DNA of 64,000 bases, from positions 309,852-373,851 of the forward strand of contig JACPGT010000002.1 of assembly GCA_016188965.1 (NCBI GenBank), read 5' to 3'. A program made the position numbers and the translations under genes. Within the stretch, counting starts at the first letter, position 1; each line of letters opens with the position of its first letter. This document shows positions 1-38,752 of this stretch, piece after piece. Source of the stretch: Microcaldota archaeon (GTDB taxonomy: Archaea > Micrarchaeota > Micrarchaeia > Norongarragalinales > Norongarragalinaceae). Below the pieces are notes generated by a model. The model was given only the letters and a program-made list of their open reading frames with translations. It was not told the DNA's origin and made no database searches.

Positions 1-35
1 CGAAACGCTTCTGGATTCAATCCGAAGCCCGAAAC

Positions 36-152
36 TCCCATCCCTCGCGTTTTTTTTATTTGATTCGCGCACCGATTCGGGGGTTGAGGCCCAGGGCGGG
101 CCAAGGGGGCGGAGCCCCATGGGGCGACCATCCCATCCCTCGCGTTTTTTTT
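36..152. repeat. 22-bp direct repeats bracketing a small structured element (copy 1)
   Basis: Positions 36-57 and 131-152 are identical 22-bp sequences (TCCCATCCCTCGCG followed by eight T). Between them, 58-130 holds a GC-rich segment. It contains GAGGCCCAGGGCGGGCCA (86-103), a short hairpin (GGGGC-GGA-GCCCC) and GGGGCGACC (121-129). The same two conserved blocks occur in reverse orientation at 37717-37761, also between direct repeats. GGCCC/GGGCC inside the first block can pair, so the element appears to form two hairpins. The flanking T runs could also terminate an upstream transcript. Element identity is inference; the repeats themselves are read directly. Confidence 0.75.
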
Positions 153-3947: not shown

Positions 3948-6900
3948 AGATCCCTCTCCTTGCCGCCGTGGTCCTGTTGGTATTCATGGCGTCACAAGCT
4001 TCCGCGGCTTGCACGCTTTCCTGCACGTTCTCCAACTCCGCCGGCCACCCCATCGTGCAAGGCAGCGGCAACTGCGGCGCATCCGGATACTCCACCAACG
4101 TCCTGACCGCCATCGGCGGATGCAGCAACCCCTCCAGTCCCGCCGACACTCCTGGATGGTATTGCGGCAACCTCTACGCTTCCGGCCCGTTGGGCGCCAC
4201 CATTTCATCCGCCACCATGGCCATCAGCGCCTGGGACGGCGGATTCGCCCAAGTCAACTGCGGCCAAGTCACGTCTCCCCCGCCTCAACCCCCTGCGCCC
4301 CAACCGCCTGGTCCTCAACCTCCGGCACCTCAACCTCCGCCCGGACCTCAGCCCCCTCCACCGGGTCCGCAGCCTCCACCTGGTCCCCAGCCGCCTCCGG
4401 CTACGCCGACGCCCTGTCCGCCGACCTACTGCGCCTCGTTAAGCGTCACCCGGCTATCGTCATCCAACCCCTTGGCGGGCCGTTCCTTCAACGCCAACTG
4501 CGTCATGAACGTCTGCGGTTCCAACTCCTACAGCTGCCCCTCCGATGCCCAATGGTCCGCCTCCTACGGCTCCGTCAACCCCGCCAGCGGAGGCTCGACG
4601 TACTGGACCCAATCCGGCACGTCGCCCGTCACCATCACCGCCAGCGTCCCGGCATGCGGCACTACCCAGACGACGTATGACCCGGCCACTTGCACGATTT
4701 CCAGCGTCCGGCCCGTCTACTGGACGCCTTCGCAGCAGACTGATTTGACCGCCGGTGCCTACGCCAACCCCGCGACCGGCCGCGAATTCCAAGCCCTCTG
4801 CAACGACCAATACGGCGAGACCTTTGCCTGCCCTGGCCCCATCAGCTGGACTTCCTCTGCCGGCTCCTTCACGACTTCGCCGTACCACCCCAGTTCCGAC
4901 TATGCGTACTGGCTCGCTTCCGGCACCACCGCTTCGCCGGTCACCATCACCGCCACGTCCCCCACGTGCGGCACGGCCTCCACCTCCTACGCGTTGCCCA
5001 TCTGCTCCGCCATCGTACTCAACCCCCGCCCCGTTCCGATTCCCGCGCCCGTCCTTGACCTAAGCAAGACTTCCCCCGTTCCAACGGAAGACCTCGAATT
5101 CAACTTGCATTGCTCCGACCAGTACGGCGAAAACTATCCCTGCCCCGCCGCGCCGACGTGGACCACCCAATCCGGTATCCTCACCACGTCCTCCCATGAT
5201 GCGACGTCCGACACGTACCTCCAGGCCTGGAACGCCACCAGCGTTTTTGGCCCGTTTGACTTCACCGCCGCCGTGCCCGGCTGCGCCTCCACGACGTGGT
5301 CCTACCGGCCCCCTGCCGTATGTGCCGCGCTTGACCTGTCCTACGGCCCCACGACGACGGAAGACTTCGCCTTAAGCCCCGGCTATACCTCCACCGGCGC
5401 CCAGTTCACCTGGTCACCCAACGGCTTGGAAAACTACATGGACGCATTGCCCGGAAAATTCTGGGGTTACAACTGGACCGTTGAGTGGCGAGACCGTCCC
5501 ACGCCCGACTGGGTTCCATTCCGCATCTTCGGAGCCGCTTGCCAAGACCAATACGGCCAAAACATCGGCTGCCCCACCCTGTATTGGAACGCCACCTCCG
5601 GATATTTCGAGAACACGGCCAGTTCCCAGATTCCCAACCGCTTCGGATTGCCTTCCAACGCCATCGTCTGGCGTTCCGGCAACCGGACCGAATTCAGCAA
5701 CATCACCGCCATCGCGCCCTACTGCGCCGCCAACAACTTATCCTTCGACCTCTACGCCCACAACGCCTGCCGCATCATCCCCGATCCCACTTTTGCCGTG
5801 GACCTCTGCACCCAATACCCCTGGATCCGCGATGACGACCGACTAAGCCGCGCCTGCACTTTGCCCATGGTCAAACTGCCCAACGGAGGCGCCGCCAACT
5901 TCACTGCCCTTTGCCGCGACGACGCCGACCAATGGCTCAACTGCCTTGAGCCGGACTTCGCTTGGCTGGACCCCGACACCAGCGCATCGGTCATTTCCAC
6001 CCAATACTGGCAAGGCGGCAACTACGTCAATGAAGCCGGCGACATGGTGTGGCGTTGGAACCCCTCATTCATGGGCAACAGCGTCGTCACCGTCGCTGCC
6101 AAACAAAGCGACACCTTCGCCACCCTTACCGCCGGCGGGCCCACCCACAACTGCAAAGCCGGCATCATCATCGGCAACCCCGCCCTCGCCTGCGATCTGA
6201 CCGTCACCAACCTCAAACCCGAAGTCGGCCAAACCGTCCAAGGCACCCTCACCTGTCGAGGCCTGGACGGCCCCGCCCCCTGCCCGCCTTTGGACCTGCG
6301 TTTCGACCCTGGCCTCTACGTCCAAATCACGTCCCCCACCACGGCCGACATCACGGCTCTTCAACCCGGCCCCCAGAACCTCACCGCTCGCGACTTCGAC
6401 CCCAACGACCCCAAACTAACCGCCGCCATCCCCTTGTCTTGCCGCGCCGTCATCAACGCCACTCCCTCCGCCACACGCTGCCGCACCCTACCCGTGATTT
6501 CAACCTTCACCGGACAGACTACCGACTTCGCCTCCGTCCTCGCCCAAACCGGCCACCTGGAATCCGTGTCCAACCTCCAGCTTGACAAGCCGGATGTCCG
6601 CATCCAATACGCTTCCGACGTCTTCGCCTGCGGACAGGACTTCGACGGCGGCATCCGCACCGCAACCGGCTTTTTCGCCCTAGACGCACCCCGCTTCCAC
6701 GACTCTCTGGTCCATCCCGCCGCTCCCGTCACCATCACCCTGAAGAGCCTGCCCTACCGCCAGACGCCCAAACTATACGTTTACGACGGCTACGCTCCCG
6801 ATGCCCAAACCGTCATTTCCAAAGGCCGCGATTGCATTACCGCCAACCGCTGCCAAAACGTCCAATACTTGCCCGAAAGCGGCACCCTGACTTTCCAGAC

Positions 6901-7357
6901 CACCGGCTTTTCCAGCTTTGCCGCAAACGACGCCAACCCCGGCACGCCTACTACGCCTCTGCCGCCCAGCGTCCGTTTCGAACTTGATTGCCCCCTGCCG
7001 CAAATCGGACAGAACAAGACACGCGCCTCCACTTTCCTCTACGTCAACGGCACGCCCAGCGCCGACACCGAGATGCAACTCGAATTCTTTCTCAACGACT
7101 CCTACGCCTTCCAAACCACTCCCGCTTCAGTAAACCCGGCCACCGGACGGCACGACTTCACCATCGACACCCGCTACGGCGGCACCTACGCCCTGCGCGC
7201 CTACTCCGGAAAATGGACTAGCAATACCTGCTCCCTTGACGTCTTCGAAGAACAAGCCACTCAAGTTCCCGAAATATCCGAGTGGCTCATACTCGCCGTT
7301 TTCCTGGCTGCCGGCTTCTTGGCCGCATCGCGCCAAGCCAAACCCCACTGGAAATAA
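3944..7357 (+). CDS. large secreted proline-rich repeat surface protein
   Basis: About 1137 residues. An N-terminal signal peptide (MKIPLLAAVVLLVFMASQAS, then ACT) precedes a cysteine-rich domain, a proline-rich stretch at about residues 111-160 built from PGPQPP-like units, and a series of beta-rich repeats. These are marked by a recurring block: LCNDQYGETFACP, HCSDQYGENYPCP, ACQDQYGQNIGCP. A single C-terminal membrane helix (ISEWLILAVFLAAGFLAA) and short basic tail end the protein. Many N-x-S/T sites suggest glycosylation. It is most likely an anchored surface or adhesion protein, translated in coupling with the upstream cysteine-rich protein. Its start overlaps that gene's stop; longer readings beginning inside that gene are rejected. 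Confidence 0.8.
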   Translation: MKIPLLAAVVLLVFMASQASAACTLSCTFSNSAGHPIVQGSGNCGASGYSTNVLTAIGGCSNPSSPADTPGWYCGNLYASGPLGATISSATMAISAWDGGFAQVNCGQVTSPPPQPPAPQPPGPQPPAPQPPPGPQPPPPGPQPPPGPQPPPATPTPCPPTYCASLSVTRLSSSNPLAGRSFNANCVMNVCGSNSYSCPSDAQWSASYGSVNPASGGSTYWTQSGTSPVTITASVPACGTTQTTYDPATCTISSVRPVYWTPSQQTDLTAGAYANPATGREFQALCNDQYGETFACPGPISWTSSAGSFTTSPYHPSSDYAYWLASGTTASPVTITATSPTCGTASTSYALPICSAIVLNPRPVPIPAPVLDLSKTSPVPTEDLEFNLHCSDQYGENYPCPAAPTWTTQSGILTTSSHDATSDTYLQAWNATSVFGPFDFTAAVPGCASTTWSYRPPAVCAALDLSYGPTTTEDFALSPGYTSTGAQFTWSPNGLENYMDALPGKFWGYNWTVEWRDRPTPDWVPFRIFGAACQDQYGQNIGCPTLYWNATSGYFENTASSQIPNRFGLPSNAIVWRSGNRTEFSNITAIAPYCAANNLSFDLYAHNACRIIPDPTFAVDLCTQYPWIRDDDRLSRACTLPMVKLPNGGAANFTALCRDDADQWLNCLEPDFAWLDPDTSASVISTQYWQGGNYVNEAGDMVWRWNPSFMGNSVVTVAAKQSDTFATLTAGGPTHNCKAGIIIGNPALACDLTVTNLKPEVGQTVQGTLTCRGLDGPAPCPPLDLRFDPGLYVQITSPTTADITALQPGPQNLTARDFDPNDPKLTAAIPLSCRAVINATPSATRCRTLPVISTFTGQTTDFASVLAQTGHLESVSNLQLDKPDVRIQYASDVFACGQDFDGGIRTATGFFALDAPRFHDSLVHPAAPVTITLKSLPYRQTPKLYVYDGYAPDAQTVISKGRDCITANRCQNVQYLPESGTLTFQTTGFSSFAANDANPGTPTTPLPPSVRFELDCPLPQIGQNKTRASTFLYVNGTPSADTEMQLEFFLNDSYAFQTTPASVNPATGRHDFTIDTRYGGTYALRAYSGKWTSNTCSLDVFEEQATQVPEISEWLILAVFLAAGFLAASRQAKPHWK

Positions 7358-7369
7358 AACAACTGTTTA

Positions 7370-7393
7370 GGACTCCCTCCACCGCCGGAGTCC
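7370..7393 (+). terminator. hairpin after the surface protein gene
   Basis: GGACTCC (7370-7376) pairs with GGAGTCC (7387-7393) thirteen bases after the stop. It lacks a clean T run, so its role as terminator is tentative. Confidence 0.4.
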
Positions 7394-7435
7394 AAAATCC
7401 TTTAAAGCCCTACTGCCTCCAAACCGGTCTGAAAA

Positions 7436-7447
7436 GCTTAATTAAGC
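7436..7447 (+). promoter_or_regulatory. palindromic TATA element upstream of the histone-like gene
   Basis: GCTTAATTAAGC is a perfect 12-bp palindrome about 36 bases upstream of the ATG at 7478. A TATA box here would give a leader of roughly ten bases that includes AAGGTGG as ribosome-binding site. Confidence 0.45.
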
Positions 7448-7477
7448 CATTTTCCGTGCTTTTGGCAAGGTGGTTTC

Positions 7478-7648
7478 ATGGCATTGGTAGTCAAGTCCGT
7501 AGTCGGAGAAAAAGCCAAGAAAGCCGGCGTCCGCGTCTCGGCCGACTTCTACGACGAAATCGACAAGAAGATCGAATGGATGCTCGGCGAGGCCGTCAAG
7601 CGCTGCAAAGCCAACAAGCGCCAGACGCTCTACCCCTCGGACCTGTAG
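7478..7648 (+). CDS. DUF1931 histone-fold protein
   Basis: 56 residues: MALVVKSVVGEKAKKAG, then VRVSADFYDEIDKKIEWMLG and a basic helix ending RQTLYPSDL. This is the pattern of the DUF1931 single histone-fold proteins found in archaea and some bacteria: valine-rich start, DFYxxLDKKVE-like helix, and a final K/RxTxxPxDL. The family is related to core histones and probably acts in nucleoid binding. It is complete at this size, has its own TATA box and AAGGTGG site, and is followed by a strong T-rich terminator, so it is a single-gene unit. Confidence 0.8.
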   Translation: MALVVKSVVGEKAKKAGVRVSADFYDEIDKKIEWMLGEAVKRCKANKRQTLYPSDL

Positions 7649-7689
7649 ACCCATATCCAAAAAACGATTCCGGCGGTCGCACGACCGCT

Positions 7690-7722
7690 TCTTTTCATTT
7701 TTCTTTTTTTTTTCTCTTGTCG
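7690..7722 (+). terminator. T-rich terminator after the histone-like gene
   Basis: A pyrimidine tract with runs of T (CTTTTCATTTTTC, then ten T) about 45 bases after the stop, as in archaeal oligo-T termination. Confidence 0.6.
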
Positions 7723-7766
7723 CCGTTCATCCACCTCCTTAAATCCCCGTTTTCCTTGATGTTGCC

Positions 7767-8387
7767 ATGGCCCGCACTCCTTCTAGAAAAACGCCGTCCG
7801 CACCGACTCCCACCCAACGCAACGACTGGGCTCACTGGGCAGGTTGGATCGCCATCGTCTCCATCATCGCTTTTGCCGCCTTGGTCAATTTGGCCGTCCA
7901 GAATTATCCCGGATTCTCTTTTTCCGAGAACTTCCTCAGCGACCTCGGCGTATTTCCCGCAAGCGCCGACTACTTCAACTCCGCCGTCATCCTCACCGGC
8001 TTGGGCGTGGCCTTCTTCGCCGTCGCCATCCACAAAAGCCAACGCTACCCCGTCACGCCCGCCGCCTTGTTGTCGTTGGCCGCCGCGGGCTTTCTCTTAG
8101 CCGGCGTCGGCGTCTTCAACTCGGACGTCGAACCCCACCACTTCCTCGCCTCGGGAGGTTTCTTCCTCTTCACCGCCTTGGCCGTCCTGCTGACGGGTTA
8201 CCACTGGGTCCGCAATCACATGGTCCTCGGCTGGATCGGACTTGCCGGCGGCGTGCTTTTGGTGGGCTTCGTCGTCATCGCCGCCCTCTCCCCGCAGCCG
8301 CTACTCCAAAAAATCGCGGTGGGGGCCGTTCTCATCGGTTACTTCATGCTCGCGCTAGGCATCATCCATGACCATTTCAAAAAATAG
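7767..8387 (+). CDS. DUF998-type membrane protein
   Basis: 206 residues with about six membrane helices. The pattern of a basic N-terminus, first helix, then NYPGFSFSENFLSDLG and a HHFLASGGFFLFT block matches the DUF998 family, which includes archaeal membrane proteins of unknown function. Nothing points to a substrate. It ends 12 bases from the convergently read truD. Confidence 0.65.
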   Translation: MARTPSRKTPSAPTPTQRNDWAHWAGWIAIVSIIAFAALVNLAVQNYPGFSFSENFLSDLGVFPASADYFNSAVILTGLGVAFFAVAIHKSQRYPVTPAALLSLAAAGFLLAGVGVFNSDVEPHHFLASGGFFLFTALAVLLTGYHWVRNHMVLGWIGLAGGVLLVGFVVIAALSPQPLLQKIAVGAVLIGYFMLALGIIHDHFKK

Positions 8388-8399
8388 TGCCTTGCGGCT

Positions 8400-9605
8400 T
8401 CAATCAAGCAGCTGATCCAACGCAACCGTCGCATAACTTCCCGACGGCAACGAAAACCTCACGACGGCCGCTTTCATCCCGTCTTGCAGCACGTTGTCTT
8501 CCGCCGAAAAATCTTTCAACGGCACTTCCGTTGCGCGGAAGGTTCCTTTCACGCTTAAGTTCGGCATCGACTTGATTTTGAAGAACTCCGGTTTGAGGCC
8601 TTTTGCTTCCAAGAATTTGGCTTCGTTTTCCGACAGAGCCGTGTCGTAACCGATGATGTGCGCACAAGGCCACCGCACGCTGCCGGAAGCATCCGGTGCC
8701 CCCGCTCCGTTTGCAACCGCTTTTTCCGCTTCCGGAAAACCCAATGCATCCGCTGAACATGAAAAATCACCGGCACTTTTCCCGATGTACTCATTGAACA
8801 ACTGCGACTGGTACGCATGCACCAACATCAACTGCAAATTCGGCGGTAATCTCCGTAGAGCGCCCACGAAATCGGTCGGATGCTCGGCCAAATGCCAAAG
8901 CACCATCTTCTCGTACTTCAAAGGCCCTGGAAAATAGGTCGTGGCTGCTGCAAAGTCTTTTTCTTCCCGCAACTTGGCCCGGGCCTGCGCAAAGTTCTCC
9001 GGCTCCGGCCCCTCGCCCGCGACGTACTCCCACGCCGCTGCCTCGAAGTTGCCTGCCAGCAACATCTTGCCGACCTTCGCCGTGTTGCCCCGCAAACTTC
9101 CGAACCGCTGACGGCCGAAGAAATTCTTCATTCTGAAACCCATAGCGTCAGCACGCTTCTGCAAGCTTTCCGCCGTGACTTTTTTTCCGCAGTTGGCCTC
9201 CGTCAGCGTGATGGTGAACCGGTTGCCGCCCAAATGGCCCATCTTGATGCGGTCCTTCGACTTCCACGCGCCCAAGATCTTGATGTCCTTGATTTCCGCA
9301 GGCAGGATGCGCGACGGCGCCATCGCAAACGCCGAACAGCGCTGCACGGTCACGGCATTCTTGTCCTTGGTGCCGGCAAAGTCAAAACGGCCCGGCTTGA
9401 CGTGCATCTGCACCGCCAACGCCCCCAGTGCCTGCATGGTGTTCCAATCGGTCTTCTGCAGGATGAAATGCGTGAAGTAATCCCGCTCCAACGCCTGGTC
9501 TTCCGGCTTGCCCAAGTCTTGAACCTTATCGACTTGTAAAACCGTGCCGTCGGGCAATATTTCCTCAACAATGAACTCGGAAGGCGATTGAGCCGTGAAA
9601 ACCAT
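8400..9605 (-). CDS. truD: tRNA pseudouridine(13) synthase TruD
   Basis: About 401 residues. TruD converts U13 (U35 in some archaeal tRNAs) to pseudouridine. FAGTKDKNAVTVQR contains the catalytic aspartate at about residue 81 (GTKDKxA motif). NFFGRQRFGS and AYQSQLFNEYI are the other TruD signatures. The ATG at 9605 is used; a TTG two codons earlier is possible. The gene follows the paired hairpins at 9674-9764 and no clear Shine-Dalgarno is seen. Confidence 0.92.
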   Translation of the reverse strand: MVFTAQSPSEFIVEEILPDGTVLQVDKVQDLGKPEDQALERDYFTHFILQKTDWNTMQALGALAVQMHVKPGRFDFAGTKDKNAVTVQRCSAFAMAPSRILPAEIKDIKILGAWKSKDRIKMGHLGGNRFTITLTEANCGKKVTAESLQKRADAMGFRMKNFFGRQRFGSLRGNTAKVGKMLLAGNFEAAAWEYVAGEGPEPENFAQARAKLREEKDFAAATTYFPGPLKYEKMVLWHLAEHPTDFVGALRRLPPNLQLMLVHAYQSQLFNEYIGKSAGDFSCSADALGFPEAEKAVANGAGAPDASGSVRWPCAHIIGYDTALSENEAKFLEAKGLKPEFFKIKSMPNLSVKGTFRATEVPLKDFSAEDNVLQDGMKAAVVRFSLPSGSYATVALDQLLD

Positions 9606-9673
9606 ATTCAATGCACGCTACGCTGTGGAACTGCAACGCTATGCCTATTAGCCCGAGAACACTTTAAAGGGTA

Positions 9674-9716
9674 TAGCAAACCAAGAATGTTTCCCGACTG
9701 AATTCTTGGTTTGCTA
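9674..9716. repeat. 15-bp-stem hairpin with GTTTCCCGACT loop
   Basis: TAGCAAACCAAGAAT (9674-9688) pairs perfectly with 9702-9716 around a 13-nt loop GTTTCCCGACTGA. The outer bases TATAGCAA recur in a hairpin at 61573 and the loop recurs in reverse complement at 61750-61760. No T run follows in either direction, so it does not look like a simple terminator. Confidence 0.8.
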
Positions 9717-9717
9717 G

Positions 9718-9764
9718 ACAGCAAGACTTGACAAATCAGATGGGATAGTTTCAAGTCTTGCTGT
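9718..9764. repeat. 14-bp-stem hairpin adjacent to the previous one
   Basis: ACAGCAAGACTTGA (9718-9731) pairs perfectly with 9751-9764 around a 19-nt loop. Read on the minus strand the loop contains ATCCCATCTGA, resembling the TTCCCGACTGA of the neighbouring loop. Only one base separates the two hairpins. Confidence 0.75.
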
Positions 9765-9792
9765 AATTGCGACCGCTACGCCCCCAATGGGT

Positions 9793-9927
9793 TCAAGTCG
9801 CGGCTTTGGCCGCCAACGAAACCCCAATGGCCGCGACGCCCAAGCCGGCCACTTCCAAACTTGCGCCTGAAGCCGCGACGACCAAAATAATCCCCGCAAT
9901 GACCGCCGTCAATGTAAGCTCATCCAT
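9793..9927 (-). CDS. 44-residue membrane protein
   Basis: A small open frame starting MDELTLTAVIAGIILVV and ending SLAAKAAT, largely one or two Ala/Val/Gly-rich hydrophobic stretches. GGAAGGTGGGAAAT directly precedes the ATG and supplies a good ribosome-binding site. It is the last gene of the minus-strand envelope cluster, 73 bases after the BofA-like gene. Not recognised; its role as an inner-membrane accessory is inference. Confidence 0.6.
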   Translation of the reverse strand: MDELTLTAVIAGIILVVAASGASLEVAGLGVAAIGVSLAAKAAT

Positions 9928-10000
9928 ATTTCCCACCTTCCTTCTTGCATCCAAATTTCCAATTCAACCCTAAGTCACTCGCAACTGCTTTTTCGTCTTA

Positions 10001-10252
10001 TCAGAAGCCCAAACGCGTCACGTGCATCAAGAAGACCAAGACGACTCCCAGGATGCCGCCAATAGCCACCACGCCCACGGATAACCACGTGATGGGAATA
10101 CCGACGTTGAATCCGACGTTCATCAAGAAGAACGCGACGATGCCCAGAATCGAGTTGCCGATGATCGCCAACGGATTCGAGATGAACTTCCAAATCAGGT
10201 AAAGGAAGAACAATGCCACCAATACCGCGCCGACTTCAAAAAATATCGCCAT
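10001..10252 (-). CDS. BofA-like (pro-sigmaK processing inhibitor family) membrane protein
   Basis: 83 residues, about three membrane helices, with NPLAIIGNSILGIVAFFLMN and NVGIPITWLSVGVVAIGGILG. This is the pattern of the BofA family, which is common in archaea although its sporulation role is only known in Bacillus. GAGGTGA lies seven bases before the ATG at 10252. The real archaeal role is unknown; neighbours suggest envelope upkeep. Confidence 0.65.
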   Translation of the reverse strand: MAIFFEVGAVLVALFFLYLIWKFISNPLAIIGNSILGIVAFFLMNVGFNVGIPITWLSVGVVAIGGILGVVLVFLMHVTRLGF

Positions 10253-10290
10253 AATCACGTCACCTCGTTTTTGAATTTTCCATCTTGGAC

Positions 10291-11460
10291 TTATTTTTTC
10301 AACACGACAAAATAGCCGTAACCGCCTACGGCCGCAATGATTCCAAGAGCAATCAATGCGTAGACGAGATTCGCTGTCGGCTCAAGCAGCGTGCGCAAAG
10401 TCGGTCTTTCTTCAGTTGTCTGCCCGATTCCGCTGGTGCCCGCCGTTTTGTTGCTTTCGGCTTTTACCGTAGCTTTCGGAGTCGCGCCGATTCCGCCAAC
10501 CGTCGGCCTAACTTTAAGCGTGTCAGTCGGAGTTGCCGAAGGCCCAAACGTTGGACTAGGAGTCAGCGCCGGTTTGCTTGTAGGTGTGGCCGTCGCGCTC
10601 GCGGATGGCAAGGGAGCCGGCGTAGTCGGATCCGCGTTTCTAGAGGGGTTTGCCGTAGGTGTGGGCGTCGCGTTTGCCGATGCATTTGCCGTAGGCATGG
10701 GAGTAGCGGAACCGCCCGATCCGCTTGAAAGTGTGACGGCATTCGCGTCCAACGTCACGGCAGTCTGGGCCAATGCCCGACCGTTCAGTTTGGCCCCCGT
10801 ATTGATGGCAATCGACGTCTGGGACAAGATGGTTCCTTTCATGTCCGCAGTCGTGCCCAAGGTCGCTTGTCCAAATAGCTGCCAGAACACGTTCTTAGCC
10901 TGTGCCCCTCCGGCAAGCGTGACAATAGCCCCGTTGCCCACGTCTAGATTCTGGGCGATTTGAAAAATCCACACGTCATCCGGACCACCCGAGAGCGTCA
11001 CGCCCGTCGGAATCATCACTCCGGTGCCCCACTTGTACAATCCAGGCCCGATGGTCATGCCGTCGATATTGCCGGCACCCAGCTCCGTCGCGGTCGGGTT
11101 CGAGCGGCCTGCCGCGTCGGTATACGCCGTTTCCATGTCGCTGATGGCGGCAGTCATCTTCGCCGGAGTCGGTGCAGTATAGTCCGCCGCATACGCTTTG
11201 CCCGTGAGCAATGACGACGTGGCGTATTCGTTGGATGAATGCATGATCAGCCCGAAACCGGTAATGGCCGTGCTGTCGATTGGGCTGACGCCGATGTCGC
11301 CGACGATGGAGGTCGTTCCGGTAGTCGAAATACCGGATTTGGACAGGATCGCGAAACTTCCCGCCGTTCCAAGATTTACCGGGGCAGGCCCCGCTGCGCT
11401 GACGGCGGTGGCTAGGAACAGGCCAAATATGATCAACCCTACTAGGGTTTTGTCCGACAT
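10291..11460 (-). CDS. ice-binding-like (DUF3494) surface protein, short copy
   Basis: About 389 residues. A signal peptide (MSDKTLVGLIIFGLFLATAV) is followed by a DUF3494 beta-solenoid domain at about 24-225. Family features are NLGTAGSFAILSKSGIS, GDIGVSP, GLYKWGTGV, VWIFQIAQNL and NVFWQ. Next comes a Thr/Pro/Ala-rich stalk of about 110 residues, one membrane helix and a basic end (VVLKK). DUF3494 proteins bind ice or act as adhesins; which applies here is open. GGGAGG sits eight bases before the ATG. It is paralogous to the longer copy at 11937 and, like it, follows a small Gly/Ala-rich gene (gap 32 bases). Confidence 0.85.
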   Translation of the reverse strand: MSDKTLVGLIIFGLFLATAVSAAGPAPVNLGTAGSFAILSKSGISTTGTTSIVGDIGVSPIDSTAITGFGLIMHSSNEYATSSLLTGKAYAADYTAPTPAKMTAAISDMETAYTDAAGRSNPTATELGAGNIDGMTIGPGLYKWGTGVMIPTGVTLSGGPDDVWIFQIAQNLDVGNGAIVTLAGGAQAKNVFWQLFGQATLGTTADMKGTILSQTSIAINTGAKLNGRALAQTAVTLDANAVTLSSGSGGSATPMPTANASANATPTPTANPSRNADPTTPAPLPSASATATPTSKPALTPSPTFGPSATPTDTLKVRPTVGGIGATPKATVKAESNKTAGTSGIGQTTEERPTLRTLLEPTANLVYALIALGIIAAVGGYGYFVVLKK

Positions 11461-11492
11461 GAAAACGCCTCCCACTTCAACTGATGCTGACT

Positions 11493-11867
11493 CTAATCCG
11501 ACTTCTTGGGCTTGCCGATGAATCCTCCGACTGCATTTCCGACCTTGTGGCCGGCCTTTCCAACGGCTTTTTCGCCCGCTTCACTGACCTGGCCGATGCC
11601 TTTGGCCGTACCGCGCACGGCTTGACCCGCCAAGTCTCCCCCGATGCTGCCGGCTTTGGTCACGGCATGCCCCGTTACGCGGCCCGCCGTTCCAACGGCT
11701 TTGCTGGTTCCGCGCACGGTCTTGCCCAAGACTTCCCCGCCGGCGCTGCCCACGTTTTCAACAATCTTGACCCCGCCTTTCACCGCGTTGCCAACGGCTT
11801 TTGCCGCCACCCTCACGGTTTGGGTCCCTTGTTCCTGGATCGAATGCTTGGTCTTTACCGTCTTCAT
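11493..11867 (-). CDS. Gly/Ala/Val-rich amphipathic repeat protein (module partner B)
   Basis: About 124 residues with no membrane segment. It is built from loose repeats of the type G-x-V-x-G-x-A/V-V-x-G-T-A-K-x-V-G, rich in Lys and short residues, and ends GGFIGKPKKSD. The paralogue at 14493-14762 ends DGFIRQPKKNLN and also directly precedes a DUF3494 gene. GAGGAGG lies ten bases before the chosen ATG at 11867; an ATG at 11876 is too close to it. The composition resembles stress-related (LEA-like) helical proteins, but that is only a resemblance. Function unknown. Confidence 0.65.
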   Translation of the reverse strand: MKTVKTKHSIQEQGTQTVRVAAKAVGNAVKGGVKIVENVGSAGGEVLGKTVRGTSKAVGTAGRVTGHAVTKAGSIGGDLAGQAVRGTAKGIGQVSEAGEKAVGKAGHKVGNAVGGFIGKPKKSD

Positions 11868-11936
11868 GATGCTCATTCCTCCTCGACTATTTTCCATTGC
11901 CTGGCTTTGCTCTGGCAATTTTTCATTGGTTTCACC

Positions 11937-14480
11937 TTACGGCTTACGTAGGAATACGACGTACCCCAACGCGCCCAACACCACCAACCCGATGCCGATG
12001 GCCAGCGGGTTCGCGGCCGTATCCGTAACCAATCCGGTAAAGCTGGCCGGAACGACCGTTGCACTGGCTTGCGCGCTCGGATTGGCACTCGCATCCGGGC
12101 CAATGCCTCCAGTATTTGTACTGGGTCTAGGCGTTACCGTGGGGGTTACACCTGTTGAACTCGGCTGCGCCGAAGGGCGTGGCGTGGATGGGAATCCCGG
12201 GCCGCCAGTGGCCGAAGACGGGCTGGGCGTCGATTGGACATTCGAGGTCGCCGTCGGTGATGAACTGGGCGTGGCACCCGTTCCCCCTCCAGATCCGCCT
12301 GAACTGCTTGGAGTCGGTGTCAGGGTATACGTTGCGAACTCCGTGAAATGCTTGGTCCAGATAACCAAGTCCGCCCCTGCGTTCATCGTACAGTCCGCTC
12401 CAGCGGCCAGCGCATCACCTACCGCTTGCGAGTCGCTCGCACACGTGGCCGTAATCTCGGTAAACGACGTTCCGTTTCGGGAATAACCCACGCGTTTTCC
12501 GGCCTCTCCGGAAATCAAAATCCGCACGCCCTTATCGAACGTCAACGCCATGCTGGAGCCCATTGAAAGCACCAACGAAGTCGTCGAAAGGAATCCGCTT
12601 GGCGGCGTAATGGCTACGCTTGAGGCGGCCATTAATGTCGGCGCCGACAGCGTTCCATCCCACCCATTGCCCGAAATGGTCGTATTGGCCGGAATCTGCA
12701 CGTAGTACATGCCGCTGGATGTGTTGCGGTTCATGGAAAACGCGGCCCCGAATCTCACGATCGTAGCACCGCCGTTCGCCTCCGAAACCAACGAGTAGTT
12801 AAGGAAAACGGGCTTCGACCCACTGACGCTCGGATCGATGGTCAGGTTTTGAGCCGAGGACGTGTTCAGGAACAAGACCTCGATAATCGTGCCATTGACC
12901 AACGTGATTCCGGAATCGGCTATCCATTGGCTGGCGTTCGGCGTGAAGTTGAATACCACAAGGTACTGCGTATTCGATCCCGCGCTGAAGTTCTGCGTCT
13001 GGTTGAACTCGAGAGTGAGGTTGTACCGTGCCGCAACCACGTAGGTTGACGTGTTCGATACGGACGCGCCCGTGGCGACCTGCGACCCGTTGATCTTCAA
13101 CGCCAACGTGCCTTCAGCAAGCGGCTTCGAGCCGCTAATCACGGATTGGTTGCCGATGCCCATGGCCTTGTTCAATTGGAATCCGTCGATGAACAGATTC
13201 AGGGTCATCGAGGCGCGGTTGATGGTCAGGTTGGTCGGGTCGCTTGAAGCGGCCGTCCAGTTCGCGCCCGCGCTTGAATTCACCCGAATCAAGTACGTTC
13301 CCACTGCATGCGTCATGTTGATGATTTTGCTTCCAACGCCTGCGTCAACGCCATCGATCGATATCGTGCAGGTAAGGTCGCTTGCTCCGACTGCCGGGCA
13401 ACCGATCGCACTGACGTTCGTCGCCGTCGTGAAACCGATGCTCCAATTCGCCGAGCTGTTCAGCGAAAGCGTCGGCGTGCCGCGGCTGACGTTGACCATC
13501 GTGGAATTCGATGCGAATGCATAGTTCGCCGTATCCGTGATGTTGATAGTCAGGTTGTAGCTGCCGACTCCCAAGGGCGTCGTGTTCAAGCTGCTGGCAT
13601 TCGTCGCCGTGCCATTCATGTAAAGCACGGCAGTGGGATCATTGCATGATGCCGTTACGTTGAACGTGTAAGGATAGTTCACCGACGCGTTCAAGACCTG
13701 GATCGAGCACGAGCCGTTCGTCTTGACAATCGTGGTGACGCCGCCGGGCGCGTTGACGCTGTTGGCATCCAACGTGACCGCGGTCTGTGATAATGCACGT
13801 CCGTTCAGAGTCGCGCCCGTGTTCAGGACGATTGCGGTCTGATCCAGGATGTTGCCATTGAATACGGCGGTCGTGCCGATAGTGGTCTGATCGCCCACTT
13901 GCCAGAAGATGTTCTGGGCCTGCGCACCGCCGCTTAGGATTACTTGCTTGCCCGACGCGATGTCAAGTGTTTGTGCAATTTGGAAAATCCATACGTCCGT
14001 CGAATTTCCCGACAAGGTGACGTCGGTGGGGATGGTGACGCCGGTGCCCCACTTGTACAGTCCGGGGACCAGGGTCATACCGCCGATGTTGCCCGCGCCC
14101 AATTCGGTAAAGTCCGGCAACGTTCGTCCGGCCGCATCGGTATACGCCGTCTCCATATCACTCACGGCCGTGGTCATGGCCGAGGGCGTCGGAGGCGCGA
14201 AATTGGAGGCATAGACGCTTCCATTGACGAGACTTGACGTCGAGAATCGGTTCGAGGAATCGGCAATCAGGCCGAACCCTGTGATGGCGGTGTGGTCGAT
14301 CGGGCTGACGCCGATGTTGCCGGTGATGGCCGTAGTTCCTGTGGTGGAAATCCCGGATTTCGCGAGAATAACGAAACTGCCCGCGGATCCAAGATTCACG
14401 GCTGCAGGCCCTGCCGCGCTCACGACGCTTGACAGAAGAATGCCCAATACGAATAAACTCAGTACGTTTTTGAATTCCAT
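11937..14480 (-). CDS. ice-binding-like (DUF3494) surface protein, long copy
   Basis: 847 residues. A signal peptide (to about residue 23) and a DUF3494 domain (about 25-240) closely matching the short copy (NLGSAGSFVILAKSGIS, GNIGVSP, GLYKWGTGV, VWIFQIAQTL) are followed by about 450 residues of Asn/Thr/Ser-rich beta domains with many N-x-S/T sites. Then come a Ser/Thr/Pro stalk, one membrane helix (LAIGIGLVVLGALGYVVF) and RKP. It is probably a cell-surface protein anchored at its C-terminus. GGTGAT precedes the ATG by five bases. It follows the small gene at 14493 by 12 bases, forming module A of a tandem duplication. Confidence 0.85.
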   Translation of the reverse strand: MEFKNVLSLFVLGILLSSVVSAAGPAAVNLGSAGSFVILAKSGISTTGTTAITGNIGVSPIDHTAITGFGLIADSSNRFSTSSLVNGSVYASNFAPPTPSAMTTAVSDMETAYTDAAGRTLPDFTELGAGNIGGMTLVPGLYKWGTGVTIPTDVTLSGNSTDVWIFQIAQTLDIASGKQVILSGGAQAQNIFWQVGDQTTIGTTAVFNGNILDQTAIVLNTGATLNGRALSQTAVTLDANSVNAPGGVTTIVKTNGSCSIQVLNASVNYPYTFNVTASCNDPTAVLYMNGTATNASSLNTTPLGVGSYNLTINITDTANYAFASNSTMVNVSRGTPTLSLNSSANWSIGFTTATNVSAIGCPAVGASDLTCTISIDGVDAGVGSKIINMTHAVGTYLIRVNSSAGANWTAASSDPTNLTINRASMTLNLFIDGFQLNKAMGIGNQSVISGSKPLAEGTLALKINGSQVATGASVSNTSTYVVAARYNLTLEFNQTQNFSAGSNTQYLVVFNFTPNASQWIADSGITLVNGTIIEVLFLNTSSAQNLTIDPSVSGSKPVFLNYSLVSEANGGATIVRFGAAFSMNRNTSSGMYYVQIPANTTISGNGWDGTLSAPTLMAASSVAITPPSGFLSTTSLVLSMGSSMALTFDKGVRILISGEAGKRVGYSRNGTSFTEITATCASDSQAVGDALAAGADCTMNAGADLVIWTKHFTEFATYTLTPTPSSSGGSGGGTGATPSSSPTATSNVQSTPSPSSATGGPGFPSTPRPSAQPSSTGVTPTVTPRPSTNTGGIGPDASANPSAQASATVVPASFTGLVTDTAANPLAIGIGLVVLGALGYVVFLRKP

Positions 14481-14492
14481 TATTCATCACCC

Positions 14493-14762
14493 TCAATTCA
14501 GATTCTTTTTCGGTTGCCGGATGAATCCATCCACGGCCCGTCCTGCCTTGCTTCCTGCTCGTCCCATGTCTTCGGCCAGATTACAGCTGGCATTGGAAAT
14601 GATTTTTACCGCGTTGTGGATCGCCGTTCCAATGGCCATCCCGGCTTTTTGGCCCGCATTTTCCGCGTGCCGTAATGAACCGCGTCGTTCATGCCCCGCG
14701 GCGCTTTTCACGCCCGGGGTCGCTTTTTCCCGCACCGCCCGAATCTTTTTTCCAGTTTTCAT
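14493..14762 (-). CDS. small basic Gly/Ala-rich protein (module partner A)
   Basis: 89 residues from ATG 14762 (a GTG at 14777 would add five). The N-terminus is very basic (MKTGKKIRAVREKATPG). The middle has a repeat-like AGQKAGMAIGTAIHNAVKII and the end is GRAVDGFIRQPKKNLN, clearly related to the C-terminus of the 11493-11867 protein. No signal peptide. The shared position directly before a DUF3494 gene suggests the two products work together. Not recognised beyond that. Confidence 0.6.
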   Translation of the reverse strand: MKTGKKIRAVREKATPGVKSAAGHERRGSLRHAENAGQKAGMAIGTAIHNAVKIISNASCNLAEDMGRAGSKAGRAVDGFIRQPKKNLN

Positions 14763-14817
14763 CTTTGGATTCCCCACGTCTTTGTTTGCCCGCCAGGCTC
14801 GTACCGGTTCACCTTGC

Positions 14818-14940
14818 TCAGTATCCCCATCGCATCATTCCCGTGCTCGCGAGAACCATGTACAGGATTACCAGCACGACCAGGAGCAGGACGATGTCGC
14901 TCAAGTCGAAATGGATGTCGCCGACCAGGTCAAATGCCAT
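14818..14940 (-). CDS. 40-residue single-helix membrane protein
   Basis: MAFDLVGDIHFDLSDIVLLL, then VVLVILYMVLASTG and MMRWGY. An acidic N-terminus is followed by one clear membrane helix. GGAG lies eight bases upstream. The ATG overlaps a TGA stop (TGATG at 14938-14942), so it is probably translated by coupling with the short frame before it. Function unknown. Confidence 0.6.
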   Translation of the reverse strand: MAFDLVGDIHFDLSDIVLLLVVLVILYMVLASTGMMRWGY

Positions 14941-15014
14941 CAGTCGATCTCCTCAGCGTCGTCTTCCCAACGGATGCGCTTGCGATGTCGTGGCTTGGAC
15001 GCCTTTTTCCTCAA
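14940..15014 (-). CDS. possible 24-residue basic/acidic peptide
   Basis: A TTG-started frame encoding RKKASKPRHRKRIRW followed by EDDAEEID. The TTG overlaps the stop of the upstream 39-residue gene (TTGA) and its stop overlaps the next ATG (TGATG). The basic-then-acidic arrangement repeats that of the upstream gene, which argues for a real product. A competing ATG frame in this stretch (29 residues from 15033) shows no such features. Start codon and expression are uncertain. Confidence 0.3.
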   Translation of the reverse strand: MRKKASKPRHRKRIRWEDDAEEID

Positions 15015-15130
15015 TCGTAGTCACTGTCTTGGTCACTTTCATCGTCACTACCCCCATACCGGTTCCAACTGCCCGATTTCTTGGCCCGACTTGATTTTTT
15101 CCACTTACCTGACATCCGCATTCCCCTCAT
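15011..15130 (-). CDS. 39-residue basic/acidic peptide
   Basis: MRGMRMSGKWKKSSRAKKSG, then SWNRYGG and SDDESDQDSDYD: a strongly basic first half and strongly acidic tail. The ATG overlaps the TGA stop of the holin-like gene (ATGA at 15127-15130), so it sits in a tight translational chain. No known family recognised; a charge-segregated peptide of this kind could bind nucleic acid or the neighbouring membrane proteins (inference). Confidence 0.5.
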   Translation of the reverse strand: MRGMRMSGKWKKSSRAKKSGSWNRYGGSDDESDQDSDYD

Positions 15131-15444
15131 CGCATTCCACTTTTTTGAAAATGCAACACCGCTCCAACCAAGGCGATGCCCAAACCGACGGCAAAGTACC
15201 CCAATCCGGGCAAGTCCAATGCCGCCTCCAAATAACGGCCTGCGCCGAATCCCATCCAAATCACTCCGGTAATCAGAAGGCTGGCGGTGAGCCCCGCCCG
15301 TATCAGCACCGGGGCCGCCCGCTCCAGACCTTCTTCAACCCCGCATGCGACCGAGTTTGAAATCTTTTCCTCCACAATGGCCGAAACGCTCACCACGCTG
15401 CGGATGCCGTCGACAAATGCCCCGATGCCCTTGAGAAGGTCCAT
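15127..15444 (-). CDS. holin-superfamily / YqjE-like two-helix membrane protein
   Basis: 105 residues. An N-terminal amphipathic part (MDLLKGIGAFVDGIRSVVSV) is followed by two membrane helices (SLLITGVIWMGFGAG and YFAVGLGIALVGAVLHF). It directly follows the DUF883/YqjD-like gene (six-base gap, GAGGA inside that gene's end), the same order as yqjD-yqjE in enterobacteria, where YqjE is in holin superfamily III. Sequence similarity is structural rather than exact, so the name is tentative. Confidence 0.5.
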   Translation of the reverse strand: MDLLKGIGAFVDGIRSVVSVSAIVEEKISNSVACGVEEGLERAAPVLIRAGLTASLLITGVIWMGFGAGRYLEAALDLPGLGYFAVGLGIALVGAVLHFQKSGMR

Positions 15445-15450
15445 GCGTTA

Positions 15451-15666
15451 TCAGTTCCTCTTGGACAACAGCGTGCCAATGATGACTCCGCCCGCAAAAG
15501 CGCCCAATACGAACGCCCACGGGTGTTCCCGGATCATGCCTTCCGCATTCTGCTTCTGCTCCAAGGCGTATTCCTTCGCATCATTCGCGTAACCGCTTGC
15601 CGTATGGACCGCCTTGTGCAATTCGTTTTCCATGTTTTGCTCCACTTGTCTTGCTGCCATATCCAT
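15451..15666 (-). CDS. DUF883 / YqjD-ElaB-like tail-anchored protein
   Basis: 71 residues from ATG 15666, with GAGGTGG four bases upstream. A charged helical part (RQVEQNMENELHKAVHTASG, then YALEQKQNAEGMI) is followed by REHPWAFVLGAFAGGVIIGTLLSKRN, the hallmark C-terminal helix of the DUF883 family (xxHPWxAxGxAxGxGxxxGxLLxRR). In bacteria such proteins tether ribosomes to the membrane in stationary phase or stress. The role here is inferred from family and neighbours. Confidence 0.7.
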   Translation of the reverse strand: MDMAARQVEQNMENELHKAVHTASGYANDAKEYALEQKQNAEGMIREHPWAFVLGAFAGGVIIGTLLSKRN

Positions 15667-15765
15667 TCCACCTCGATTTTTCCGTCCTTTCATTTCCATT
15701 CCTATCGCCCCCATCGTCCGGTGGTTTTATTCCCTCCGGATGCCTGCGTGGACTTTTCCGACTCC

Positions 15766-17148
15766 TTACGAGATTCGGATGGCGTTTCCCACCGTTGCTC
15801 CGCCCGTTCCGCTGACGACGACCACCTTGCCGTTGGTTTCAATCGTCACGTTCGCGTTGACCGGAACGATCAGGTTGACGCCCACGTTTCCGTCCACGCC
15901 CATGCCCACTTTGACGGACGTCCGCACGCTACCGCCGATGATGCGGATGTTGACGTTTCCCCGTCCGTCCGATTCATCCGGTTCCCGGATTACGGTGGCG
16001 TTGCTGCGCGTTTCCAACCGGATTACCGGCGTCATGATGTACTTGCCGTTGCCCGTCATGTGGATGGATTCGTTGGCCGCAAAGTCAAACACGGCCGTAG
16101 CCGTGGCATTGGCGCGCACCTGCATTTCGCCCATGATCTTCAGCTCGCCGGACGGCAATTTGGCGTCATGCGATCCATTCGCATCCGTCACCGTGACTTT
16201 GGAAATGCCCAGGCGCAGCTGGTCGTAGGTATCCGCGGTCAAGTTCGCATCCGCCAAAGCCATCACGTTGCCCGTAGCGTTCAATTCCAAAAGGTCGAAC
16301 GTCTTTGAAGTCGTGGATGCGTCCACCCAACCCCGGGTAGCGCTGTGCAAGCGCACTGAATCCACGGTGATGTTCACGCTGGTGATGGTGCCCATCGAGC
16401 CTGCCGGGTCGGCGATCCCGATCACGGCACGTCCCGTGCCGCTGGCAAGGATCGTTCCCGCAGTCAGGATCGAAACCTGGCCGTTTGAAGACACGGACAG
16501 GTTCACGTCGGCCGGAATCGAGCGGCCCACGCCGACATTGCCGTTGATGTCCATGCCCACTTTGGCATTCATCACGATGTTGCCGCTTGAAACCAACACC
16601 TTATTGTTGCCGGTCACCTGCACGTTCGCATCCGTACGCGTCTCCGTCTTGATTACCGGCGCCAGGATGTACGTGCCTTTCCCGGTCAAGTGCAAAGACT
16701 CGTCCGCCACGAAGTCGAACAACACACTTGACGTCGAATTGCTCTTCACGACCAAGTTGCCGACGATTTTGACCGTACTGGACGGCATCTTGGCTTCATG
16801 TTCCCCTTGGGCATCCGTCACCACGACGCGTGAAATGTGGATGTTCATCTGGGTGTAGGTTCCATTGGCAAGCTTGGCATCCGCCAGAAGCTCGGCGTCC
16901 CCACTGGCCCGCAACGTCATCAAGTCAATGGTCTTCGGGGTCGAGGATACCGTAACCCATCCTTGGGCTTCGCTGTGCACCTGGACGCTGTCAATGGTCG
17001 TCCTCACGCTGGTGATGGTGCCCATATTGGCCGCGGCATCCTTGGCCGCGAAAACGACCCGCCCATCGCCTGAACTGCTCGCGGTACCCGAACTTCCAAC
17101 GCATCCGAACAACAACAATGCGGCGAACAAAACCCCAAACAAGACCAT
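15766..17148 (-). CDS. lipoprotein with two DUF4382 domains
   Basis: About 460 residues. MVLFGVLFAALLLFGC ends in a lipobox (LFGC, Cys16), so it is probably a lipid-anchored surface protein. Two homologous DUF4382 domains follow (about 30-180 and 235-390). Each has ITSVxxTxDSVxxHS, a GW, a TxDLxxL block and an IxPVIxxETR end. An aspartate-poor tail of repeated NVxVxGxxV stretches closes it. The family is common in bacterial and archaeal envelopes but has no proven function. The start is uncertain: TTG 17226 and GTG 17205 are in frame, and the TATA box near 17262 is nearer to those. Confidence 0.7.
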   Translation of the reverse strand: MVLFGVLFAALLLFGCVGSSGTASSSGDGRVVFAAKDAAANMGTITSVRTTIDSVQVHSEAQGWVTVSSTPKTIDLMTLRASGDAELLADAKLANGTYTQMNIHISRVVVTDAQGEHEAKMPSSTVKIVGNLVVKSNSTSSVLFDFVADESLHLTGKGTYILAPVIKTETRTDANVQVTGNNKVLVSSGNIVMNAKVGMDINGNVGVGRSIPADVNLSVSSNGQVSILTAGTILASGTGRAVIGIADPAGSMGTITSVNITVDSVRLHSATRGWVDASTTSKTFDLLELNATGNVMALADANLTADTYDQLRLGISKVTVTDANGSHDAKLPSGELKIMGEMQVRANATATAVFDFAANESIHMTGNGKYIMTPVIRLETRSNATVIREPDESDGRGNVNIRIIGGSVRTSVKVGMGVDGNVGVNLIVPVNANVTIETNGKVVVVSGTGGATVGNAIRIS

Positions 17149-37662: not shown

Positions 37663-37791
37663 ATGCATGTCGGTTTTGTTGGTTTGGGTCGCATGGGTAA
37701 GCACATGGTCTTGCGTGGTCGCCCCGGGGGAATGACTTCCCCCTGGCCCGCCCTGGGCCTCGCCCCCTTCGTGAAGTTTGGAGCTGATTAG
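37663..37791 (+). pseudogene. duplicated 5' fragment of the 6-phosphogluconate dehydrogenase gene
   Basis: Positions 37663-37716 repeat the first 54 bases of the real gene (37793-37846) with two silent changes, beginning exactly at the ATG. After 18 codons the frame enters the inserted element and stops at 37789-37791, one base before the true ATG, giving a 42-codon upstream reading frame. It is either a relic of the original gene start or a small translated leader. Confidence 0.75.
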
Positions 37792-37792
37792 G
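37717..37792 (-). repeat. small structured element, copy 2
   Basis: On the minus strand it carries GAGGCCCAGGGCGGGCCA (37744-37761), a GGGGGAA-GTCA-TTCCCCC hairpin and GGGGCGACC (37717-37725). It has the same conserved blocks and order as 58-130, while the middle hairpin differs in sequence yet stays complementary. It is flanked by the 54-bp duplication. Confidence 0.75.
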
Positions 37793-38752
37793 ATGCACGT
37801 TGGTTTTGTTGGTTTGGGTCGCATGGGTAAGCACATGGTCTTGCGTTTAAAGGCGCAGGGTTTCCGTGTCGCGGTGTACAACCGGTCGCCTGAAAAAGTC
37901 AAGCAGATGGAAGAAAACGGCGTCTCCGGCGCTTACAGTCTCAAGGAACTCGTCCAGAAGCTGGACGCGCCCCGTGTCGTGTGGCTCATGGTTCCGCAGG
38001 GACCCACGGTGGATGAGATGTTGGATGGCATCGTTCCTTTTCTTTCACAAGGCGACGTCGTAGTGGACGGCGGCAATAGTTACTACAAGGACTCCGTCCG
38101 CCGCGCCGCGCAACTGAAGGCTAAGGGCCTTCATTACTTGGACGTCGGCACCAGCGGTGGTTTGGGCGGCGAGAGGCACGGGTATTGCTTCATGGCCGGC
38201 GGAGAGCCCAAGGCCTACGCCGCGGTCGAGCCGGTGCTCAAGGTCCTGGCCGCTCCGGGCGGCTACGGCTTGTTCGGTCCTTCCGGCGCCGGGCACTTCG
38301 TCAAGATGGTGCACAACGGCATCGAGTATGCGTTGCTTCAAAGCTACGGCGAAGGGTTTGAACTTTTGAAGAACGCGCCGGAATTCAAGATCGACTTGCA
38401 CAAGACGGCGCACGTGTGGAACCGCGGCTCGGTCATCCGCTCCTGGTTGCTGGAGTTGGCGGAAGATGCCTTGCAGAAAGACGGCCGGCTTGAGCGAATC
38501 GGTGACTCCGTCGGCGGCGGCAGCACGGGTGAGTGGACGGTGCAGACGGGCATCGAGCAGAAGACGCCCACGCCCATGATTTCGACCGCTTTGAATGCCC
38601 GCTACCGCACGCGGCAGGCTGAAAGCTTTGCGGGCAAGATGGTGGCCGCGTTGCGCAACGAGTTCGGCGGGCATGACGTCGTCCAGACGGACGCGGCGGC
38701 CGGTGTTGCGGTGCCGGCCAACGGCAGCAAAGCGAAAAAAGTCAAAAAATAG
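37793..38752 (+). CDS. gnd: 6-phosphogluconate dehydrogenase (decarboxylating, short form)
   Basis: 319 residues. It oxidises 6-phosphogluconate to ribulose 5-phosphate with NAD(P). The N-terminal dinucleotide fold GFVGLGRMGKHM, DGGNSYYKD and GTSGGLGGERHG, and GAGHFVKMVHNGIEYA with the catalytic Lys and His-Asn, are intact. The length is that of the short (YqeC-like) group. GGAG in the element's end, nine bases before the ATG, serves as ribosome-binding site. The gene therefore stays functional despite the insertion at its start. A Lys-rich tail (KAKKVKK) ends it. Confidence 0.93.
   Translation: MHVGFVGLGRMGKHMVLRLKAQGFRVAVYNRSPEKVKQMEENGVSGAYSLKELVQKLDAPRVVWLMVPQGPTVDEMLDGIVPFLSQGDVVVDGGNSYYKDSVRRAAQLKAKGLHYLDVGTSGGLGGERHGYCFMAGGEPKAYAAVEPVLKVLAAPGGYGLFGPSGAGHFVKMVHNGIEYALLQSYGEGFELLKNAPEFKIDLHKTAHVWNRGSVIRSWLLELAEDALQKDGRLERIGDSVGGGSTGEWTVQTGIEQKTPTPMISTALNARYRTRQAESFAGKMVAALRNEFGGHDVVQTDAAAGVAVPANGSKAKKVKK

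Follow-up and report, generated by a model that had tools for sequence, protein, structure and literature searches.

At the start of the 64,000-nt stretch of Micrarchaeota DNA analysed here (the window), a short structured segment stands between two copies of the same sequence, which raises the question of what kind of element this is and how the two copies arose. An earlier note, made from the sequence alone, had described perfect 22-bp repeats around an element of about 75 bp, core blocks of this element that recur in reverse at 37717-37761, and direct repeats at this second site as well. The 22-bp repeats are present at 36-57 and 131-152, the core blocks were found in inverted orientation at 37717-37768, and the second site is flanked by a 54-nt repeat with 96% identity (37663-37716 and 37793-37846). 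The proposed size had to be corrected: an element is present, but its structured part, in the following called S, comprises about 50 nt (79-129) and is preceded by a spacer of 21 nt. The annotated parts of the window are:

1-49, plus strand: 3' part of the complete tRNA-Ser(GCT) gene (cloverleaf fold without insert)
36-57, plus strand: first 22-bp repeat, consisting of the T-arm/acceptor 3' end of the complete tRNA and T8
58-78, plus strand: 21-nt spacer separating the restored gene end from the structured element
79-129, plus strand: structured element S, T-type (69.1 bits; covariation)
130-152, plus strand: native tRNA 3' end, now displaced, which begins within the T-loop and directly after the 3' end of the element
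37663-37716, plus strand: native 5' end of the 6-phosphogluconate dehydrogenase gene, now displaced (54 nt; identity with 37793-37846, 96%)
37717-37768, minus strand: second structured element S, G-type (75.7 bits; orthologous site empty in genome G002)
37769-37792, minus strand: spacer
37793-38752, plus strand: complete 6-phosphogluconate dehydrogenase-like gene, its 5' end brought by the element (PF03446, 1.5e-46; PF00393, 1.5e-23)

The complete tRNA-Ser(GCT) gene begins 67 bases upstream of the window (coordinate -66). Its T-loop holds an intron-like insert of 31 nt (window positions ~5-35), and after removal of this insert the tRNA has a length of 85 nt and folds into a perfect cloverleaf. 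ARAGORN and Rfam did not detect this tRNA at the window start. Introns occur in many tRNAs of the genome and are overlooked by ARAGORN with default settings; the displaced tRNA-Ser 3' end does not contain the 31-nt insert of the complete copy. S at 79-129 is composed of a purine tract, the hairpin P2 (GGCCC AGGGC GGGCC), the hairpin P3, the sequence GGGG and the 3' end CGACC, in this order. The 3' end CGACC of the second S adjoins the displaced 6-phosphogluconate dehydrogenase copy, which differs from the complete gene at two positions, both synonymous. An Rfam search of the window gave no match, and a covariance model of S gave 13.4 bits as the next best score after the two copies listed above.

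This model goes back to a first genome search with the 117-nt stretch, which revealed six places; the six copies were aligned, and two hairpins and a provisional third helix were defined by hand. A covariance-model search had been suggested by the earlier note, and it yielded about 27 copies in the 1.37-Mb Micrarchaeota genome to which the window belongs (E ≤ 1; 22 of them at E < 1e-4). Among sixty relatives, copies numbered 10, 6 and 11 in two congeners and a member of a different genus of the family, a third genus contained one weak copy, and no copy was found in the remaining genomes. A second covariance model, applied to 301 genomes of the phylum, detected S in these five genomes and no others; all of them are Candidatus Micrarchaeota MAGs from groundwater. 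The IMG/VR contigs gave no match to the S pattern. Pattern matches in Nocardioides and Myxococcales contigs were discarded as chance hits, which were weak (20.8 bits) or absent under the covariance model. The inserts between the repeats are about 70-250 nt long and gene-free, all 34 matches to a pattern of the 5' half were short complete S, and none of the copies sampled had a long insert. A search for an autonomous S with a gene inside P3 was likewise negative. Misassembly is an unlikely source of the repeats, since the same arrangement occurs at about 40 loci of independently assembled genomes. Almost identical enlarged S of 110 nt are located at three unrelated targets (L018, L019 and L024), and tandem and composite insertions were found at L013, L039 and L042. 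S modules have therefore switched targets, each with an end that fits its own target.

For the analysis of the flanks all copies were oriented with the element 3' end GGGGCGACC, and the right flank was aligned to the left flank. A clear repeat of a gene end was detected at 40 of the 49 loci, starting not more than 5 nt from the 3' end of S (in 33 cases at nt 1) and extending over 22-115 nt. Both repeats of the window are such gene ends: the 22-bp repeat comprises the 3' end of tRNA-Ser(GCT) and its T-run, the 54-bp repeat the 5' end of the gene for 6-phosphogluconate dehydrogenase. S targets T-loops of tRNAs and, in protein genes, either the 3' or the 5' end. Rfam placed tRNAs beside 10 of 16 loci tested, and a few more tRNAs were identified by eye; apart from tRNA, only SRP and weak tmRNA matches were obtained around these 16 copies. 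The complete gene lies 5' of S and the truncated copy 3' of S, whatever the reading direction of the gene. Exceptions are L017, L024 and L026 with the complete gene on the 3' side, which are composites with a second element in opposite orientation. At 3'-end and 5'-end targets alike, the orientation of S follows the direction from complete copy to remnant and not the direction of the gene. As the orientation is fixed to the complete and displaced copies and not to transcription, these data suggest that S acts as (single-stranded) DNA. A function as RNA regulatory element or terminator was rejected because the direction of S relative to the gene is not constant.

Two further observations were made at such gene ends. 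The gene end at L032 encodes a PEP-synthase-like domain with around ten or more paralogues in each of the genomes G000, G001 and G002, an unusual number for a 1.3-Mb archaeon. At L111 (G000, contig C4, ~125.6 kb) a divergent S-like element directly follows the stop codon of an L049-type gene, with an eroded copy of the gene end behind it.

A comparison of the complete and displaced copies of 21 protein genes revealed 84 differing codons, 68 of them synonymous and 16 not; both copies of the gene ends were therefore functional until recently. In addition, the orthologues of ten target genes were compared across G000, G001 and G002. For each clearly resolved target, at least one congener has a single gene end and no element. 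The sites in 6-phosphogluconate dehydrogenase, a thiI-like gene, an lpd-like gene and the L008 gene are empty in G002, those in trpG and the L049 gene in G001, that in atpD in G000 and G002, and those in trxB and uS10 in G000 and G001. The displaced trxB and uS10 ends of G002 resemble the native ends of G000, and the displaced thiI start of G000 retains upstream sequence in common with G002. In the L008/L034 gene the end types are seemingly swapped between the two congeners G000 and G001, as judged by eye, and trpG was hit in G000 and G002 at different points by different S. Because the differences are mostly synonymous and congeners have empty sites with a single gene end, the comparison shows that S imports a foreign gene end and that the native end is displaced.

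These results bear on the interpretation given in the earlier note. The proposal of a small non-autonomous mobile element with selection on its structure gained support from the additional copies in the genome and in its relatives. As anticipated there, the repeat is present once at orthologous loci that lack the element, and the contrary arrangement with two repeats and no element did not occur among the orthologues compared. The idea of target duplications of varied length was abandoned: the repeats are gene ends, one imported and one native and displaced, since their divergence is mostly synonymous, the displaced copy resembles the native ends of congeners and the repeats abut the 3' end of S. 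A duplication of the target site with subsequent decay of one copy was also rejected, as the differences are mostly synonymous.

The two gene-end copies differ unevenly along their length: mismatches amount to 18% over nt 1-6, fall to 8% over nt 7-20 and reach about 22% over nt 24-46. Shared identity next to the junction is as short as 5-6 nt (L016, L035). In remnants at tRNAs, GTT or GTTC is often followed by 1-3 additional nt. A comparison of the junctions across loci revealed no common sequence, no common arm sequence and no fixed target tetranucleotide. By analogy, a short tolerant stretch beside a required identical one recalls overlap and arm in a tyrosine-recombinase site, or an annealing seed.

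According to the earlier note the middle hairpin varies in sequence and stays complementary, and the analysis of 54 distinct copies confirmed this. P2 and P3 covary strongly, with changes on both sides at 12 of 17 pairs. Both-side changes were counted in 90 cells versus 32 ± 4.5 after shuffling, and the signal disappeared when the partner was slid by one column. A helix P1 (GGTCG/CGACC), suggested by the first folds, was dismissed, as its central pair fails in 32 of the 54 copies. The P2 loop and the terminal 4-6 nt of S are complementary. We found six end types (CGACC, CTTAG, CTTAC, ATTAC, ATCC and AACC), each with a fitting P2 loop; the pairs of end and loop are GGGGATTAC/GTAATC, CTTAC/GTAAGC, CTTAG/CTAAGC, ATCC/CGGAT and AACC/CGGTT. 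The common end CGACC with the loop GGNCG forms four of five pairs with a central mismatch, and all five pairs in L041. In most of the minor end types the gene-end repeat abuts the new end.

When reversed, the purine tract 5' of P2 has the sequence of the P3 5' strand, as with GGAGGAA in L017 and GGGGGAAG in L007. This mirror relationship gave 219 matches versus 200 ± 3.8 in shuffled data (0 of 10000 shuffles as high), the run lengths of tract and P3 correlate with a rho of 0.83, and all 13 copies with T/A at the tract end have A at the P3 base, and no other copy has it (table 13/0/0/32), all three values being calculated with kinship of the copies ignored. An antiparallel purine-motif triplex (G.G-C, A.A-T, T.A-T) needs a mirror-symmetric purine strand, and perhaps the tract forms a purine triplex on P3. 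Not in agreement with such a triplex is a C that faces a C-G pair in five copies. Different elements (L018, L019, L024, L025, L027, L028, L029, L032 and L033) have the same extra hairpins, among them GCGATGG...CCATCGC and CCGACGGTC...GACCGTCGG, within their P2 or P3 loops, like nested cargo.

A second family with the same layout of tract, guide loop, P3 and end terminates with GCGGTTC(CG). A strict pattern of this family matched 3, 2, 1 and 3 times in the four main carriers and twice in G010, where the first family is absent; reversed control patterns gave no match. A gene-end repeat is present at the second-family loci L134, L139, L141 and L143. With the same layout and with gene-end repeats in a second family, the elements form a class and not one family. 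More element families with this layout and other ends (GCGGTTCCG; TGGTCC-like) were noticed at L015, L017, L022, L024, L040, L051, L054 and L134-L144. Often they share a tRNA with an element of the first family, and the elements at the two ends of such a composite face outward.

The genes of the carriers were inspected for a possible enzyme; all genomes are incomplete MAGs, so the absence of an enzyme is weak evidence. Within this limit, no reverse transcriptase (PF00078) was found in 11 genomes including the carriers, no Y1 HUH transposase (PF01797) in G000, G001, G002, G008 and G006 (71-90% complete) at E ≤ 0.01, and Cas1 (PF01867) only in the non-carrier G003 and in no carrier. The routes via these three enzymes were set aside, as no such gene was found in the incomplete genomes of the carriers. 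TnpB is present in the carriers G002 and G008 and in the non-carrier G003, and was not found in the incomplete genomes G000 and G001. A TnpB-like gene lies directly upstream of an L008-type target gene at L129 (G002, contig C32, ~1.0-1.2 kb), and this site is empty in G002. The tyrosine recombinases of G000, G001 and G002 are 50-60% identical to those of non-carriers. A 403-aa tyrosine recombinase of G000 was discarded as element-specific enzyme, since relatives also occur in non-carriers; it looks resident, as the distance to thiI is about 6 kb in G000 as well as in G002. The search thus gave no enzyme specific to the carriers. A provirus-like block at L085 (~6100-16000; G000, contig C1, ~254-264 kb) with a small tyrosine recombinase and ATPase-like and repetitive proteins adjoins the tRNA that carries copy L026.

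We are highly confident that the S elements are mobile and gene-less and replace gene ends. Our best reading, to which we give about an even chance, is that they are integrative mini-elements mobilised in trans, with S as their 3' end. The mobile unit would consist of the end of a conserved host gene from a relative, a spacer of 0-70 nt and the S of about 50 nt, sometimes enlarged by extra hairpins, so that the whole element may comprise about 50-150 nt. It would insert inside the same gene of a new host, the imported end would complete the gene, and the native end would be left as a remnant starting at the 3' end of S. We assume that S is folded as single-stranded DNA and that its 3' terminus is selected via pairing with the P2 loop, perhaps with participation of the purine triplex on P3. 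A recombinase acting in trans would join the end of S to the target beside the near-identical stretch (~nt 7-20), and a circular or linear DNA form would move between cells. That integration is single-stranded, loop-coded and carried out by such a recombinase could turn out either way, and a first guess for the enzyme is a tyrosine recombinase that acts on a folded strand. The observations behind the best reading are the copies and their anatomy, the empty sites, the import of the gene end, the covarying hairpins, the loop-to-end complementarity and the mirror coupling. Against it stand the lack of a carrier-tied enzyme, with tyrosine recombinases in carriers and non-carriers alike, the central mismatch between loop and end in the main type (except L041) and the exceptions L017, L024 and L026. 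Furthermore, crossover arms without common sequence are ill-suited to a classical tyrosine recombinase, and no excised form of the element was seen.

Foreign gene ends with synonymous differences are also the signature of homing in fungal mtDNA (PMC3630166), and S or its transcript might direct a nuclease in trans to the empty gene, with repair of the double-strand break copying S and the gene end. The structured 3' end directly abutting the target sequence recalls the flank of TnpB/omega-RNA as guide, and TnpB is encoded in two carriers (G002 and G008). We consider homing unlikely, however, as the filled allele keeps an intact near-identical target in the complete gene, which the nuclease would recut, as no TnpB was found in G000 and G001 despite their many copies, and as the direction of S relative to transcription is not constant. 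Ordinary homologous recombination by a single crossover with circles or linear fragments of gene end and S is distinctly unlikely. The role of S would be limited to defining a single fragment end, for instance as a hairpin for processing or replication, and the resulting structure would be that of a Campbell integration with the repeat as homology, in line with the near-identical stretch at nt 7-20; yet junction identities down to 5-6 nt (L016, L035) and repeats of 22-115 nt are very short for this process, and the loop-to-end code is left unexplained.

Single-strand transposition of the IS200/IS605 or REP type, with a Y1 HUH transposase in trans, the P2 loop as guide and the 3' end of S as right-end cleavage site, would account for the loop-to-end code, which resembles the base-pairing recognition of IS608 (PMC5934647). 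The four main carriers gave no PF01797 match, elements with a single S have no left-end hairpin with its own guide, there is no fixed target tetranucleotide, and carrying gene ends is foreign to that mechanism, so that we regard it as very unlikely. It is highly improbable that the elements descend from larger integrated plasmids or viruses by deletion of everything except an attachment region. Integration is classically found at tRNA genes and conserved gene ends, and a provirus-like region lies near copy L026, but the approximately 27 copies are uniform, no sampled case has a long insert, the spacers are uniformly short and the IMG/VR contigs contain no S.

Returning to gene-less, gene-end-replacing mini-elements mobilised in trans, we see slightly less than an even chance that they represent a new class of mobile DNA of 50-150 nt, with a single structured 3' end that is defined by a loop-to-end code and stabilised by a purine-motif DNA triplex, and with a target set by the carried end of a host gene instead of a fixed sequence. 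If true, this would be selfish DNA without gene, inverted repeats or target duplication that nevertheless edits conserved genes, such as those for tRNAs, ribosomal protein uS10, ATPase subunit D and trpG, by swaps of gene ends between species. Foreign gene ends can thus occur in these archaea, a point of importance for gene trees. If carried homology sets the target and the end by the loop code, the machinery would be a programmable DNA-insertion system, and with the carried end of a host gene as target determinant one machinery could serve any number of targets.

In the open-access papers searched, with their limited coverage, we found no described mobile element that replaces gene ends without a gene of its own. 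Among the closest known systems are the mobile ORFs at gene ends in fungal mtDNA, known from atp6 of Allomyces and from atp6, atp9, cox2 and nad3 of Glomus (PMC3630166). As in these ORFs, S carries a foreign gene end, a hybrid gene is made, the native end is left downstream, and the flanking copies differ mainly at synonymous sites (PMC3630166). The fungal ORFs encode a homing endonuclease and comprise hundreds of bases (PMC3630166), whereas S elements have about 50-150 nt and are gene-free, and their inserts are too short for a homing endonuclease gene. Unlike the fungal ORFs (PMC3630166), S is archaeal, occurs also at 5' ends and in T-loops of tRNAs, and has a conserved fold. With archaeal integrative elements of tRNA genes (SSV-type, plasmid integrases) S shares the insertion into T-loops or gene ends and the element-borne copy that restores the gene; in contrast to them it has neither integrase nor cargo, and the target varies from copy to copy while S is constant. 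Like MITEs, the elements are short, gene-less and present in many copies, but those with a single S have no terminal inverted repeats and no target-site duplication.

The attC cassettes and CTX phage substrates of tyrosine recombinases resemble S in the folded strand, the conservation of structure over sequence and the one fixed recombination end. No attC consensus boxes were seen in S, and unlike integron cassettes it has no cassette gene and no array and targets many host genes instead of attI. By inspection, S junctions follow no GTT rule outside tRNAs, and carriers contain tyrosine recombinases with no assignment to IntI. With IS200/IS605 (IS608) and REP elements S has in common a subterminal hairpin, an end chosen by an internal guide and a design that suits single-stranded DNA. 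It differs from them by the guide in the P2 hairpin loop, the missing left end, the lack of a fixed target tetranucleotide and the carried gene ends, and no Y1 transposase was found in the carriers. Taken together, S fails defining features of each family tested and is partly like the gene-end ORFs of fungal mtDNA (PMC3630166) and partly like IS608 in its end recognition (PMC5934647).
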